Positions 9,288 to 38,305 of a stretch of 64,000 bases of DNA are shown here, piece by piece. A program made the position numbers and the translations under genes. Position 1 is the first letter of the stretch; every line of letters starts with the position of its first letter. The stretch spans positions 1 to 64,000 of the forward strand of contig NZ_JACJKB010000006.1 of the NCBI RefSeq assembly GCF_016900375.1, written 5' to 3'. This DNA comes from Collinsella tanakaei. GTDB taxonomy: Bacteria; Actinomycetota; Coriobacteriia; Coriobacteriales; Coriobacteriaceae. Below the pieces are notes generated by a model. That model had not been told where the DNA came from. It saw nothing but the letters and a program-made list of their open reading frames with translations, and did not search any database.

Positions 9288-9462
9288 CAAATCCGCGACT
9301 TTTGAGATACCTCACCGTCTTTATAGGTTTATAAAACCGCGATTTGCACTGATTCTATGCATGTGATGTATTAAAAGCGCTGGTCAAAGGTTAACGTTAT
9401 GCACGAGCGTAAGCGACACTATGTCACTTACGCTACAACCCTCTCAAAAGTCGCGTATTTGG
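9288..9462 (-). repeat. MITE-like foldback element, copy 1
   Basis: About 175 bp bounded by terminal inverted repeats: CAAATCCGCGACTTTTGAGA on the left, and CCAAATACGCGACTTTTGAG read inward from the right on the other strand. It is in the opposite orientation to copies 2 and 3. An internal hairpin AGCGTAAG/CTTACGCT sits near the right end (about 9408-9436). Shared internal words with copy 2 include AGCGCTTTTAAT and TGCATAGAATCAG. There is no open frame of note; it is non-coding and clearly AT-richer than its surroundings. Confidence 0.85.
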
Positions 9463-16823: not shown

Positions 16824-16997
16824 CAAAAACGCGACTTTTGAGAGGTATACAGTCTAAGTGATGTGACGTCACTTAGACTCGTGCATAGCATATATCTCTG
16901 ACCAGCGCTTTTAATGCGTCGTATGCATAGAATCAGACCAAATCGTGACGATAAAAACCCACAATAGCGATGAGATATCTCAAAAGTCGCGAATTTG
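16824..16997 (+). repeat. MITE-like foldback element, copy 2
   Basis: Terminal inverted repeats start CCAAAAACGCGACTTTTGAG on the left and CAAATTCGCGACTTTTGAGA read inward from the right. A perfect 10-bp internal hairpin GTCTAAGTGA/TCACTTAGAC lies at about 16852-16878. It occupies the gap between the EamA gene and the araC-type gene and has no coding potential. Confidence 0.87.
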
Positions 16998-21906: not shown

Positions 21907-22090
21907 AGGATCAAATCTGCGACTTTTGAGAGGTATGCATGGTAAGTGACGTAACGTCACGTAGCATCGTGCATAACAAATTCATCTGACCTGCGTATAT
22001 GATAATCAACGTGCATAGAATCGACTCAAATCGTTGCGATAAAAACCCACAATACCGGTGAGGTATCTCAAAAGTCGCGGATTTGATCCT
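21907..22090 (+). repeat. MITE-like foldback element, copy 3
   Basis: About 184 bp. The terminal inverted repeats are longest here: AGGATCAAATCTGCGACTTT at the left, and the same with one change (C for T) read inward from 22090. The internal palindrome is GTGACGTAACGTCAC (about 21946-21960). The stretch ATAAAAACCCACAAT is shared exactly with copy 2. Non-coding. Confidence 0.9.
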
Positions 22091-25522: not shown

Positions 25523-25630
25523 GGCTGGAAAGGGGAAAGGCCCCCCGGCTTCCCGTTCGAAACAATCCCGCAGCCCGCAGGGCGAGGACGTTTCGAACGG
25601 GAAGCCGGGGGGCCTTTCCCCTTTCCAGCC
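25523..25630. repeat. Perfect 41-bp inverted repeat past the activase gene
   Basis: The arms 25523-25563 and 25590-25630 are exact reverse complements, with a 26-nt loop. The arms begin GGCTGGAAAGGGGAAAGG and end CCGTTCGAAAC. The right arm starts 10 bp beyond the activase stop (minus strand). There is no T-run. It could be an extreme 3' hairpin protecting the long mRNA, or a foldback insertion. Confidence 0.9.
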
Positions 25631-25639
25631 GGATGGAGG

Positions 25640-28600
25640 CTACCCCTGCTCGCGGGCCTCCATCATGAGCATTTGGAGGCGGTTCTCGATGTTGGCTTGG
25701 CTCGTGTCGGGGTCGTAGTCGAGCGGCAGGATCGAGGCGTCCGGATACCGCTCCTTCAGGCTCTTCACGATGCCGCGCCCCACGATATGGTTCGGCAGGC
25801 ATCCGAAGGGCTGCAGAATCAAAAACGCACGGCAGCCGCGCGCCGCGTGGTGCAGGATCTCCGCGGGAATCAGCACGCCTTCGCCGGCGTCGAACGTGTG
25901 GTGCACGATGTCGTCGCTCGCACGCACGAGCTCTCCCATGCGCTCGGGCGCCTCGTAGAGCGGGTGCTTCGAGGCGATCCGGTCGCACGCGCTCTGGGCG
26001 AACTCGAAGGCATCGTCCGAAACGGCCCACTCGGCCTTCTGCGAAAGCGGCTTGTGGATGCCGTACTCGCGCACCTGCGCGTGCTTGTAGAAATACGTCT
26101 TGCGGATGACGTCGGTCATGCGCGCCTCGATGACCTCGAAGCCGTTGCGCTCCAGGTAGCGCTCGATGTCGCGGTTGGCGCCGGGATGGAAGTTCAGCAG
26201 ATACTCGCCGACGATCAGCACGGTGGGCCGCGGATGCGAGCGGTCGATCTTCACGTCGGCCATGACCTGGATGGCGCGACGGAAGCCGGAAAGCGCCCCG
26301 CGCACGCCGTGGCGCTTCGTGCCCTCGATCACGTGGTCCAGGGCGATCTCGAAGGCGCGGTCGGCGGCGCCCGGCTCGAGCTCGTAGGGGCGCATCTTGC
26401 GCAGCAGCTCCTCCAGGGCGTCGATCATCGGCAGGCCATAGGCGATGCGCATGGCGGTCATGAGGCTCATCTTGAAGCCAGGGTGCAGGTCGTGGTTGTC
26501 GGCAAGGTCGTTCGTGAGGATGGGCACCTGCGAAAAGCCCGCATCGTCGAGTGCCTTGCGCAGCAGCGCCGAGTAGTGCGTCAGGCGGCAATCGCCCACG
26601 TACTTGGCCATCATGACCGCGGTGTGGTCGAGGTCGTACCCGCCGTTCATCAGGCCGTCGAGCACCTCGCCGATCACGATCTGCGCGGGGAAGCAGATGT
26701 CGTTGTGAACATAACGCTTGCCCAGGCGGATGGCGTTCTCGCGCCCGACCGGCAGCGAGACGGCGCGCACGCCCTGCTTGGTGAAAGCGGCGGCCATGAG
26801 GCGCGAGAAGGCGTGCGACGTGTTGGGCACGAGCACCGTGTAGGTGTCGCGCTCGTCTTTGGTGAACTTCACCGGGTAGGGATCGGAAAGCTCGCGGACC
26901 TCGTCGTCGGCGTCGCCGCGCGCACGGCGGATGCGCGTCGTCTCCAAAAACGAGCGCACGCGGATGCGCAGGGCGCCCTCGGCGGCACTCTCGTCCACCT
27001 TGAGCAGAAGCGGCCGCTTGGCCGACACCTCGTGCATGAGGCGCGCCGCCTCGTCGGCGAGGTACGCATCGTGTCCGCAGCCGAAGCTCGCGATCTGCGC
27101 GAACTCGAGGCCCTCGGTGCGCGCGGCGATGAGCGCGCACGATAGGATGCGGGCGTGGTAGTTGTTGGCGATATCCAGACGGCTGCGCGTGAGGTCCACC
27201 TCGCGCATGCCCGGGACGGCGTCGGCGGTGAGCACGGGCACACCCTGCTCGATGAACATGCCGGGCAGATTGTGGTTCACGATCGGGTCGGTCTGGTAGG
27301 GGCGCGACGCCAGCACGACGCAGGTGCCGCCGGCGGCCTGCGTCTGCTCGAGAACCTCGCGGCCGCGCGCCTCGAGCGCGTCGGTGAAGGCCGCCTGCGC
27401 GCGGTCGGCCTCGGCGAGCGCGGCGCGCGTGGCGTCGACCGGGATGCCGAACGTCGTCGCTAGGTACTGCACGAGCTGCCGCTCGCGGTCGTCGGCGGTG
27501 TACCAATGGAACAGCGGCGAGTCGAAGGGGATCCCGAAGCGCTTGGCGGGGTTGTCCGACGAGCGGATGACCATGGGGTAGCCCTTCACCACGGCGCACA
27601 TGGACTCCGCCGTGCTGGCCGTCCCCTCGGGCGCGACGGTGGTGATGATGGGCATGAAGATGCGGTCGACCTGCCGCGTGGCGAGGTCGCGGATGTGGCC
27701 GTGGACGAGCTTCGCCGGAAAGCAGACCGTGTCGGAGCTCACGGCGGAAAGGCCGCTCTCAAACATCTTGTGCGTGCTCATGGCCGAGAGCACGACGGTG
27801 AAGCCGAGCGACTCGAGCAATGCGGTCCAAAACGGCGCACTGTCCCAGATAGCGAGCACGCGCGGAATGCCGATGCGGATGCCGTTGTCGGGCAGGATCT
27901 GGGCGTGCTCGGGCCGGCGGAACAGCAGCTTTGTGCGCTCCTCGAACAGGTTCGGCACGCGCGCTGCCTGCTCGGCCGCCTGCTTGGCGCGCTCGCGTAC
28001 CTGGGCGTCGTGCGGGTCGCCCATCACCTCGCCGCGCGAGCAGCGGTTGCCCGTCACATAGCGCTCGCCCGTGGAGAAGCTGATGATGGTGCGCGCGCAG
28101 TGGTTGCCGCAAAACGGGCAGGTGACGTTGCCCTCGCGGGTGAACGAGAGCGCGCGGACGGCGTCGAAGCCGATGAAGGACGAGCCGGAAGCGCTGTCGC
28201 CCCCGTTCCTCTCCACCTGCTCCTTGGCGAGCAGAGCGGCGCCGATGGCGCCCATGAGGCCGGGGTAGGGGCTGCGCGTGACCTCGCGGCCCACGTACTG
28301 CTCGAAGGCGCGCAGCACGGCGTCGTTGGTGAAGGTGCCGCCCTGCACCACGATGTGCTCGCCGAGCGCATCCATGTTGGGCACGCGCACGACCTTCGTG
28401 AACACGTTCTCGATGATTGAGCGGCAAAGTCCCGCCATGATGTCCGCGGGCGTCTTGCCGTCGCGCTGCTCGGAGATGACGCTGCTGGTCATGAAGACGG
28501 TGCAGCGGCTTCCGAGCGACGCGGGATCGGTGGACGAGAACGCGGTCTCGGCGATGTCCGCCAACGGGATGCTGAGCGAGCGGGCGAAGTTCTCCAAAAA

Positions 28601-30052
28601 CGAGCCGCAGCCCGACGAGCACGCCTCGTTGACGATGACGTCTGTGATCACGCCGTCGTCGACCCACATGGCCTTCATGTCCTGTCCGCCGATATCGAGG
28701 ATGAACGTGGCGTCGGGGCGGTAGGCGAGCGCGGCGCGCGCGTGGGCGACGGTCTCGACGGTGTGGTAGTCGGCCCCGAAGGCGCGGGCGAAGAGCTGCT
28801 CGCCGTAGCCTGTCGTGCCGAGGCCGCGCACCTGCAGCGTCACGCCACGCGCCGCATAGGCATCCGCGAGGCCCACGAGGGCGTCGCGCGCCACGTCGAT
28901 GGGTTCGCCCTGGTTCGAGGAGTAAAACGAGTCGACGGGCGTGCCGTCCAGGCCTAAGAGCACGAGCTTCGTGGTGGTGCTGCCGGCATCGATGCCCACG
29001 TAGACGGGCAGCGTCGTGCCCGCTGCGAGCTCGGGCGGCGTGATGGCCTTGATCTCATGGCGCCGCTCGAAGGCGCGGCGCTCCTTCTCGGAGGAAAAGA
29101 AGGGCGCCACGCGCGTGGCGCGCGGCTGGGGCGTGCGGGCGAGAGCGTCGAGCGCGTCGGCGGCAGCTGCGAGGTTGCAGGGGGTCTGCGCGGAGTTGCT
29201 CCCGCGCCGCTCGAGCCAGAGCGCCGCGCCGCGCGCGACGATCGTCTCGGGATGCTCGGGGATGATGACCTGCTCGGGCGCCAAGCCGAGGCGCTCGGCG
29301 AACACGCGCACGAGCGTGGGGTTGAACGTGAGCGGGCCGCCCTGGAACACGACGGGCGGCTCGATGTCCAGACCCTGGGCCAGGCCGCCGACCGTCTGCT
29401 TGACGAGCGCGTGGAACGTGGAGAGCGCGATGTCCTCCTTGGCAGCGCCCTGGTTGAGCAGCGGCTGGATGTCGGTTTTGGCGAAGACTCCGCAGCGGCC
29501 CGAGATCTCGTACACCGTCGAGCCGCGCTCCGCCAGGGCCTCGAAGCTCTCGGTGGGAACTCCCAGCACCGAGGCGATCTCGTCGATGAACGCGCCGGTA
29601 CCGCCGGCGCAGGTGCCGTTCATACGCATGTCGTCGACGCGCGAGGCGCCGCCGTAGGGGTCGGTCTTGAAGAAGACCATCTTGGCGTCCTGCCCGCCGA
29701 GCTCGATGACCGTGCGCGCCTGCGGGTAGAGCGCCTGCACGGCGGCAGCGCCCGCAACGACTTCCTGCACGAAGGGGACGCCGCAGGTCTCGGCGATGGG
29801 TGCCGCCCCCGAACCGGTCACCGCGAGGGCGACCGGCTGCCCGTCGAGCTTTTCTGCCACGCGGCGCAGGGCGGCAGCGGCGCAAGCGACCTGATGCGCG
29901 TGGTGGCGCTCATAGCTCGTGTGGAGGACCCTATGCGTGCCGGGCTCGACGACTACGACCTTGACGGTCGTCGATCCGACGTCGAGGCCGATGAGCAGCC
30001 GCTCAGGCGGCATAGGGGAGGTGGATAGCGCTTCGTGCTGGGTGTCGGGCAT
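25640..30052 (-). CDS. Fused 2-hydroxyacyl-CoA dehydratase activase / dehydratase-like protein
   Basis: The 1470-residue protein has two ASKHA ATPase (BadF/HgdC-like) modules in tandem: the first at about 15-280 (IGLDVGSTTVKVVVVEPG, cluster motif NGTCAGGTGAFIDEIA near residue 140) and the second at about 350-610 (YVGIDAGSTTTKLVLLG, NEACSSGCGSFLENFA). A Cys-rich hinge follows (CPFCGNHCARTI), then a DUF2229 segment and a long HgdB-like dehydratase region to the C-terminus. In 2-hydroxyglutaryl-CoA dehydratases such an activase injects an electron using ATP. Large fused versions are typical of anaerobes and the substrate is not known. No canonical dehydratase subunits are nearby. The promoter region is shared with the divergent nucleoside hydrolase. 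Confidence 0.88.
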   Translation of the reverse strand: MPDTQHEALSTSPMPPERLLIGLDVGSTTVKVVVVEPGTHRVLHTSYERHHAHQVACAAAALRRVAEKLDGQPVALAVTGSGAAPIAETCGVPFVQEVVAGAAAVQALYPQARTVIELGGQDAKMVFFKTDPYGGASRVDDMRMNGTCAGGTGAFIDEIASVLGVPTESFEALAERGSTVYEISGRCGVFAKTDIQPLLNQGAAKEDIALSTFHALVKQTVGGLAQGLDIEPPVVFQGGPLTFNPTLVRVFAERLGLAPEQVIIPEHPETIVARGAALWLERRGSNSAQTPCNLAAAADALDALARTPQPRATRVAPFFSSEKERRAFERRHEIKAITPPELAAGTTLPVYVGIDAGSTTTKLVLLGLDGTPVDSFYSSNQGEPIDVARDALVGLADAYAARGVTLQVRGLGTTGYGEQLFARAFGADYHTVETVAHARAALAYRPDATFILDIGGQDMKAMWVDDGVITDVIVNEACSSGCGSFLENFARSLSIPLADIAETAFSSTDPASLGSRCTVFMTSSVISEQRDGKTPADIMAGLCRSIIENVFTKVVRVPNMDALGEHIVVQGGTFTNDAVLRAFEQYVGREVTRSPYPGLMGAIGAALLAKEQVERNGGDSASGSSFIGFDAVRALSFTREGNVTCPFCGNHCARTIISFSTGERYVTGNRCSRGEVMGDPHDAQVRERAKQAAEQAARVPNLFEERTKLLFRRPEHAQILPDNGIRIGIPRVLAIWDSAPFWTALLESLGFTVVLSAMSTHKMFESGLSAVSSDTVCFPAKLVHGHIRDLATRQVDRIFMPIITTVAPEGTASTAESMCAVVKGYPMVIRSSDNPAKRFGIPFDSPLFHWYTADDRERQLVQYLATTFGIPVDATRAALAEADRAQAAFTDALEARGREVLEQTQAAGGTCVVLASRPYQTDPIVNHNLPGMFIEQGVPVLTADAVPGMREVDLTRSRLDIANNYHARILSCALIAARTEGLEFAQIASFGCGHDAYLADEAARLMHEVSAKRPLLLKVDESAAEGALRIRVRSFLETTRIRRARGDADDEVRELSDPYPVKFTKDERDTYTVLVPNTSHAFSRLMAAAFTKQGVRAVSLPVGRENAIRLGKRYVHNDICFPAQIVIGEVLDGLMNGGYDLDHTAVMMAKYVGDCRLTHYSALLRKALDDAGFSQVPILTNDLADNHDLHPGFKMSLMTAMRIAYGLPMIDALEELLRKMRPYELEPGAADRAFEIALDHVIEGTKRHGVRGALSGFRRAIQVMADVKIDRSHPRPTVLIVGEYLLNFHPGANRDIERYLERNGFEVIEARMTDVIRKTYFYKHAQVREYGIHKPLSQKAEWAVSDDAFEFAQSACDRIASKHPLYEAPERMGELVRASDDIVHHTFDAGEGVLIPAEILHHAARGCRAFLILQPFGCLPNHIVGRGIVKSLKERYPDASILPLDYDPDTSQANIENRLQMLMMEAREQG

Positions 30053-38193: not shown

Positions 38194-38305
38194 GGGAGGT
38201 TTGCTGGATTCGCCCGCTGCGAGTTCCGCACGCAAAGGAGAGCCCAGTGGGCTCTCCGTCTTGCGCAGGACTGCCCGAGCGCCGGGCGAATCCAGCAAAC
38301 CTCCC
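38194..38305. repeat. Long palindrome in the cysS leader
   Basis: The arms 38194-38216 and 38283-38305 are perfect 23-bp reverse complements (starting GGGAGGTTTGCTGG). Inside lies the palindrome GGAGAGCCCA/TGGGCTCTCC (38237-38257) flanked by partly pairing CTGCG...CGCAG. The right arm ends 16 bp before the cysS ATG, adjacent to its ribosome site. No T-box consensus and no T-run are visible. Confidence 0.85.

Follow-up and report, generated by a model that had tools for sequence, protein, structure and literature searches.

Among described systems, the REP-type extragenic palindrome (PMC3733652) is the closest kind of element to the long hairpin analyzed here, which lies behind an activase gene of Collinsella tanakaei. 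In the part of that account used here, REPs and BIMEs, including the GTAG- and CGTC-tagged super-families, are dispersed palindromes that are plausibly transcribed and lie mostly just downstream of coding regions, and in these respects the present element is similar; as with the CGTC REPs, no dedicated transposase was found adjoining it, and its centre starts with the letters CGTC. It differs from the REPs and BIMEs of the same account in its variable arms and near-invariant centre, and in size, about 110 nt as compared with 20–40. About 16 copies (15 that match an exact pattern and a 16th) are present in its own genome, as compared with the many copies of a CGTC REP, but some published REP families are also small (PMC3733652), so that copy number alone is not excluding. 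The CGTC-REP stem of 8–9 bp, with A-T as the first two pairs, was not found either: the apical stems of the element have about 3–7 bp, and the first pair is G-C in 139 of 140 copies and G-U in one. GTCC, which is present in 137 of 141 copies and usually as CGTC, is predicted by folding to be paired (GUCC with GG(A/G)AU), whereas the tag of the CGTC REPs is unpaired (PMC3733652). A CGTC REP was rejected as a likeness of letters only, the element departing from it in stem and unit, two of the three features tested.

Hairpins generated and mended by template switching, as far as two sources describe them (PMC8794818, PMC8604942), share with the element perfect arms, multi-base compensatory changes, hairpin-primed copying, and spacer inversion. 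In contrast to those hairpins, the element recurs as one family with a near-invariant centre across genera, and the rRNA examples have perfect runs that are short. Priming from a hairpin loop can fix stems and keep the loop (PMC8794818), and spacer inversion is known from template switching in yeast (PMC8604942). A third comparison is with the inverted repeats at bacterial terminators: perfect repeats are enriched downstream of transcription ends, but in the portion of the source drawn on here (PMC13155455) it is the arms that are conserved and the spacers that vary, the reverse of the element. None of the 4227 models of Rfam 15 reached its gathering score with the window element and nine further loci, permissive scans of two copies gave sub-threshold matches only, and Rfam families resemble the element solely in being long hairpins. 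The element is not described in the literature that we found on Collinsella or Coriobacteria RNA motifs, terminators, palindromes, inverted repeats, or repeats with a conserved loop and variable stem.

We read the element as a dispersed gene-end palindrome in which the arms are recopied on DNA and the centre is a putative recognition module of the 3′-UTR, an interpretation that we consider probable, with a confidence somewhat above even. The usual rule is reversed in that the arms may change freely, provided that they match, and it is the spacer that hardly varies.

The hairpin at the activase gene end

An inverted-repeat search of the window (the whole stretch of 64,000 nucleotides that was analyzed) reproduced the coordinates of the original prediction, with 41-nt arms at 25523–25563 and 25590–25630 that are 100% complementary and 26 nt apart. 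This is the longest inverted repeat in the window with arms at most 300 nt apart; the next in rank have arms of 25 nt (96%) and 23 nt (100%). In the transcript sense the stop codon is followed by 9 nt, the 5′ arm, 26 nt, and the 3′ arm; the hairpin thus abuts the activase gene, as had been claimed, its arm ending 9 nt past the stop codon, and reading of the sequence 3′ of it in the transcript direction revealed no T-run. The intervening 26 nt had been described as a loop. The length is correct but the segment is not a free loop: folding predicts a small hairpin interrupted by an asymmetric internal loop, and the segment is repeated elsewhere. The parts of the locus, all on the minus strand, are as follows.

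25640–30052 (minus), host (upstream) gene, a CoA-enzyme activase of 1470 amino acids with BcrAD_BadFG and DUF2229 domains (open reading frame and domain search)
Stop codon of the host gene 25640–30052 (minus), the 5′ neighbour of the element
25590–25630 (minus), 5′ arm in the transcript sense, 41 nt, exact reverse complement of the 3′ arm (sequence and repeat search)
25584–25590 (minus), 5′ side of the centre, sense CGTCCTC (GTCCTC in 137 of 141 copies)
25573–25583 (minus), small apical hairpin, sense GCCCTGCGGGC (from folding; stem variable yet paired)
25564–25572 (minus), 3′ side of the centre, sense TGCGGGATT (TGCGG[AG] in 133 of 140 copies)
25523–25563 (minus), 3′ arm in the transcript sense, 41 nt (sequence and repeat search)
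25549–25604 (minus), span of covariance model R1 (75 bits; the window copy is among the 24 used to build R1)

An activase fragment that was searched alongside other host genes gave no Pfam match.

A dispersed family with a near-invariant centre

Searching for the arms elsewhere was one of the checks proposed with the original prediction. When 151 bases around the hairpin were used to search the own genome (G000, 2.48 Mb in 87 contigs), ten further places were obtained in addition to the query locus itself on both strands, but it is the spacer that recurs: eight of the ten match solely query bases 62–93, the spacer region. The conserved part of this multi-copy family is the spacer, which had been overlooked. 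When read in context and folded, the further places were found to sit at the tips of separate long hairpins. The pattern AATCCCGCAG-N4-18-GAGGACG has 15 matches in the own genome as compared with 0 for a reversed-pattern control, and the covariance model, constructed from 24 copies, gave 17 matches at E ≤ 0.001; a 16th copy was read at C24:76-127. The centre in the transcript sense is GUCCUC, a small hairpin, and then UGCGGG-AUU.

For the wider family 141 copies were fetched, mostly those with the best R1 scores, out of a larger set. They represent 138 distinct contexts, and one place is present twice (L182 and L094:2289); repeats were removed by sequence for the arm-pair, inverted-gene-end, and orientation counts. 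Copy L129, in which the right end of the centre is mis-set, was kept in the arm-pair, isolated-mispair, fold-based T, cluster, inverted-gene-end, and orientation counts and in the GTCCTC count over 141, and was left out of the apical, TGCGG[AG], and aligned-arm T counts. The copies lie mostly at gene ends and share a near-invariant centre and arms that are free yet complementary: across copies and orthologues the letters of the arms can change completely while complementarity is kept. The apical hairpin occurs in 58 distinct versions among 140 copies, and over these versions its stems comprise 250 Watson-Crick, 2 G-U, and 3 A-C pairs when the innermost unpaired positions are treated as loop. 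The covariation score of 24 sequences is 0.466, as compared with 0.153 for shuffles and at most 0.156 for slid controls. In a subset, designated type A, a second internal loop (5′ AC, 3′ UUA) recurs eight pairs outward of the centre.

R1 has matches in 57 of 65 genomes of the taxonomic family at E ≤ 0.001. At E ≤ 1e-5 it also matches 47 genomes in a sample of 246 from the class, and 43 of the 47 are of the same family; because, judging by the order of listing, 50 of the 246 belong to that family, matches outside it are present in 4 of about 196 class genomes. A wider contig scan with a loose pattern gave at least 116 stretches. Among the matches listed, four pair 15 or more of 20 arm positions, three of them from Collinsella and one from an uncultured Coriobacteriaceae, one further match pairs 14 of 20, and those from other phyla pair 12 of 20 at most. 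On viral contigs 95 stretches fit the loose pattern and none has well-paired arms (at most 11 of 20 positions), and carriage by phage was rejected on this basis.

Each of the 15 own copies that match the exact pattern is preceded by a same-strand open reading frame of at least 115 codons that ends 33–55 nt before the centre. The Pfam assignments of these host genes (class II aldolase, L24, phosphotransacetylase, semialdehyde dehydrogenase, GHMP kinase, serine dehydratase, two P-type ATPases, FtsX, an ABC transporter, and others) are mostly mutually unrelated. Orientation was counted in the copies that have 550 nt of flank on each side (129 of 141, or 126 without repeats), using open reading frames of at least 120 codons with an end within 80 nt. 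Of the 126 copies, 92 have such an end only 5′ of the element, 19 have one on each side, 4 have one only 3′ of it, and 11 have none, so that a long reading frame ends just 5′ of the element in 111 of the 126. The orientation is strong but not absolute, since 4 copies are inverted with respect to the sole long reading frame end and 11 are without one. Integron attC sites, which go with an integrase and mobile cassettes, too follow stop codons and were considered solely on that account. The 129 host proteins form 57 clusters, 30 of which have two or more members, for example aldolase (10 rows, one place being counted twice), GHMP kinase (6), and activase (4). They are largely housekeeping genes, several of them retained across genera, and the same host gene often keeps the element across species and genera despite differing arm letters.

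A role in 3′-UTR recognition would account both for the orientation of the centre and for its recurrence at the same genes in different genera. We infer that conservation of the centre reflects recognition of the transcript (or of the DNA hairpin) by a putative factor, which most likely acts at the 3′ end of the mRNA. The centre would then be selected as the recognition module of a transcribed 3′-UTR, and a putative bound protein or nuclease may set or protect the end of the mRNA. On this reading the element marks a 3′-end module of common gut bacteria, the partner of which could be sought biochemically.

A tentative alternative, possible but with the odds against it, is that the element is a mobile palindrome similar to a REP or MITE, in which the centre is a hairpin recognized by a transposase (e.g. 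Y1/RAYT), gene ends are tolerated sites, and the arms are passengers. Two own-genome copies at unrelated genes, L019 and L032, have common arms and a common centre within unlike flanks, which indicates that whole elements can be copied between loci, and the REPs of the portion of PMC3733652 used here are likewise found mostly downstream of coding regions. Y1_Tnp proteins are encoded in 53 of the 65 family genomes, with four in the own genome, and five of the eight element-free genomes (G019, G021, G028, G046, and G056) are also without Y1_Tnp. However, elements are present in 7 of the 12 genomes that lack a Y1 match, including G051 with 15 and G055 with 17, whereas G030, G032, and G060 have Y1 but no element. 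The elements also remain at the same genes across genera, and transposition leaves arms that are unrelated yet complementary unexplained. An association with a RAYT gene such as that of the GTAG REPs, or REPtron, was suggested by the presence of Y1_Tnp. It was rejected when R1 was used to scan 20 Y1_Tnp loci, selected from more than 100 matches listed and extending about 1.3 kb to each side, and no element was found beside any of them (best E 0.042).

Complementarity of the arms

Selection for pairing in RNA is expected to tolerate G-U and not A-C, whereas restoration of the arms at the DNA level should make both about equally rare. The aligned arms of 129 distinct copies contain 3312 Watson-Crick, 47 G-U, and 35 A-C pairs and 115 others, many of which, we suppose, stem from the recurring AC/UUA loop. 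Isolated mispairs comprise 25 G-U, 15 A-C, and 20 transversions; the difference between G-U and A-C has p = 0.15, so that there may be a modest preference for G-U. The 16 own copies have 512 Watson-Crick pairs, 1 G-U, and 0 A-C. As a control, 24 tRNAs, including some from other phyla, gave 486 Watson-Crick, 31 G-U, and 0 A-C pairs, a set biased to pairs because the finder requires them, and the G-U to A-C ratio differs between arms and tRNAs with p about 1.5e-6. An A-C frequency close to that of G-U is unlike the outcome of RNA selection. Strong selection for arm stability alone could lower G-U too, but not lift A-C alike.

Changes were also scored between related copies, in 33 pairs chosen by hand. 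In the pairs with at least 50% of positions unchanged, 21 changes are double Watson-Crick changes, 8 are single and involve G-U, and 11 are single mismatches, where overlapping comparisons count some changes repeatedly, one pair is non-orthologous, and 86 positions are unscored (77 pair differently, 8 are unaligned, and 1 is other). Two marks of template switching are thus present: (i) double Watson-Crick changes without a significant excess of G-U and (ii) inversion of the spacer with retention of the arms. The latter was observed in one case, asd, where the centre is reversed between G000 and G033 and the arms are nearly identical. In addition, an inverted copy of the asd gene end is conserved in three species, so the event is old.

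The similar frequencies of A-C and G-U, the double changes, the inverted centre, and the inverted gene-end flanks described below fit fold-back template switching on DNA, and maintenance of arm complementarity at the DNA level is strongly indicated. The original prediction had offered gene-conversion-like maintenance as one explanation of the perfect arms; the double Watson-Crick changes, the lack of a significant G-U excess over A-C, and the single inverted centre narrow this to fold-back template switching. In the proposed mechanism, the strand that bears the hairpin would fold back during replication, and one arm would be recopied from the other by template switching. Such recopying would mend mismatches as double changes, may occasionally turn the centre round, and may in some copies have extended the palindrome into the coding region. 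The many orthologous copies make the family a natural system in which to measure the writing and repair of hairpins by template switching in bacteria. Covariation alone is no proof of an RNA structure, and the ratio of G-U to A-C among mispairs is a simple added test.

Extension into the gene end was analyzed by taking the 60 nt that precede the 5′ arm, which are mostly gene end, and comparing them with the 70 nt that follow the 3′ arm, read as the reverse complement; cross scores were taken from all other copies. The mean score is 9.32 for own pairs and 7.90 for cross pairs, and none of 5000 permutations reached the observed mean. Among 127 copies, which include orthologues and hence are not independent, 24 exceed 95% of the cross scores, as compared with 6.35 expected, and 103 are below that line. 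The top score is that of phosphotransacetylase (L029), in which the final ~50 nt on the upstream side, including the stop codon, are for the most part found again in inverted form downstream. The signal of the window copy is not significant (score 10.0; 20% of cross scores are as high). The 3′ flanks of some copies are thus decayed inverted copies of the end of their own gene, and the plain reading of these sequences is that fold-back copying around the centre pulled the gene end into the palindrome in some copies. In L020 (G000:C1:258.7 kb), the 5′ arm has a partial inverted copy of a T-tract; its source looks like the terminator of a convergent gene, which suggests that copying may proceed in the opposite direction as well.

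Fold-back copying allows a different view of the centre, namely that it is a palindrome-writing module, a conserved self-priming DNA hairpin that, at a gene end, would cause the machinery of replication or repair to fold back and copy upstream sequence into the downstream flank. We regard this as unlikely; if true, the element would rebuild its arms from host sequence and need none of its own. It is equally doubtful that the reason for conservation of the centre is the priming of fold-back itself, as opposed to recognition by a factor.

A conventional structured RNA, in which selection acts on the transcript and the covariation of the arms is due to ordinary compensatory mutation, is quite improbable. 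Strong covariation and gene-end orientation are what such an RNA would show, and G-U is slightly more frequent than A-C (47 to 35 overall and 25 to 15 among isolated mispairs). However, G-U accounts for only 47 of the 3394 Watson-Crick, G-U, and A-C pairs, the isolated mispairs do not show the significant excess over A-C that characterizes the tRNAs, the own copies are almost entirely Watson-Crick, and the inversion of the centre is a further point against it.

Transcript ends, orthologous loci, and other repeats

The original prediction described the hairpin as without a T-run and far beyond a normal terminator, and this holds for the window copy and for the family. An ordinary intrinsic terminator with an unusually long stem is very improbable, despite the position of the elements right behind stop codons and the presence of at least four T in the 8 nt past the arm in 46 of 138 copies, several of them within TGCGTTT. 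Five or more T in 8 nt are present in only 13 of 138 copies and TTTT within 12 nt in 7 of 138. With the stem end taken from the fold, the counts are 34 of 139 for at least four T and 8 of 139 for at least five, but the fold-based end overruns the arms (>40 pairs) in 54 of 141 copies and for this reason the count was repeated at the aligned arm end, as given above. A separate strict terminator lies 38–230 nt further on in 16 of 137 copies, as compared with 3 of 137 in antisense and 0 of 135 in a coding control, and a terminator has no need for an invariant centre. A canonical terminator was rejected on account of the weak or missing T-tract and of the separate terminators further down in some copies.

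The end of the activase gene was matched in 23 of 43 genomes of the genus, with short and weak matches only in G020 and G030. Fourteen activase loci were read, including the own locus. Six relatives (G033, G040, G018, G043, G045, and G039) have a long hairpin with this centre or a variant, and six of the 14 loci have no such hairpin. At the activase end of G044 (L046), where relatives carry the element, there is a ~36-bp perfect palindrome without the centre. The arms differ from those of the own copy in G045, G043, G018, and G040. The 3′ flank in relatives had been proposed as a check, and in the separate assembly G033 it has nearly identical arms and core, with one double Watson-Crick difference among others. 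Recent formation of the window copy, which had been suggested from the identity of its arms, is not supported in view of this orthologous gene end. An assembly artefact with a false second arm, to which perfect arms in an 87-contig assembly could point, is very unlikely and of negligible weight because the orthologous gene end in a separate assembly (G033, L041) has nearly identical arms and core, and the same architecture is present in many separate assemblies. At the 3′ end of the G040 activase gene (L042), a full element is preceded by what appears to be a tandem duplication of the gene end together with the hairpin's 5′ half.

The fba gene end was read in 23 of the 43 genomes with a match. 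This centre is present in 5, and an equally long hairpin with another centre is present in at least 10 of the 23, including G033, so that the centre is not indispensable at fba. The G033 hairpin (L206) has arms similar to type A and a different centre, which looks as if it had been swapped within the same kind of arms. The 3′ end of fba in G040 (L233) has a ~40-bp perfect palindrome without the centre, where the element is present in relatives. The CTCACCTGGC..GCCAGAAGTCGCG centre of the main clade was considered as a second dispersed class and rejected, being found only once per genome where it occurs; its positions agree with the fba matches, and the remaining pattern matches differ in the middle.

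A second long hairpin of the window, at 38194–38305, lies in the leader between ispF (YgbB) and cysS. It has 23-bp perfect outer arms and an inner imperfect pair of 25 nt, and the inner part, TTCCGCA..GCAGGAC, has a loose likeness to the centre with a longer top; no Rfam model matched this hairpin at its gathering score. Near RAYT-like genes (L370 2072–2155, L374 849–932, L371, and L373) there are other perfect palindromes with 40-nt and 38-nt arms, and short GGGAAAATAGGGAC / GTCCCTATTTTCCC pairs occur at the same kind of locus (8 of 20 loci scanned); these palindromes and short pairs are possibly the true REPs of those enzymes. Three elements of ~175–185 bp, at 21907–22090, 16824–16997, and 9288–9461 of the window, have terminal inverted repeats of 20–25 nt (TCTCAAAAGTCGCG..TTTG) that are 134 nt apart. 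From their sequences these would constitute a MITE-like family, and among the 23 own-genome matches listed several are full-length, and others are end pieces or have the same ends on the opposite strand.
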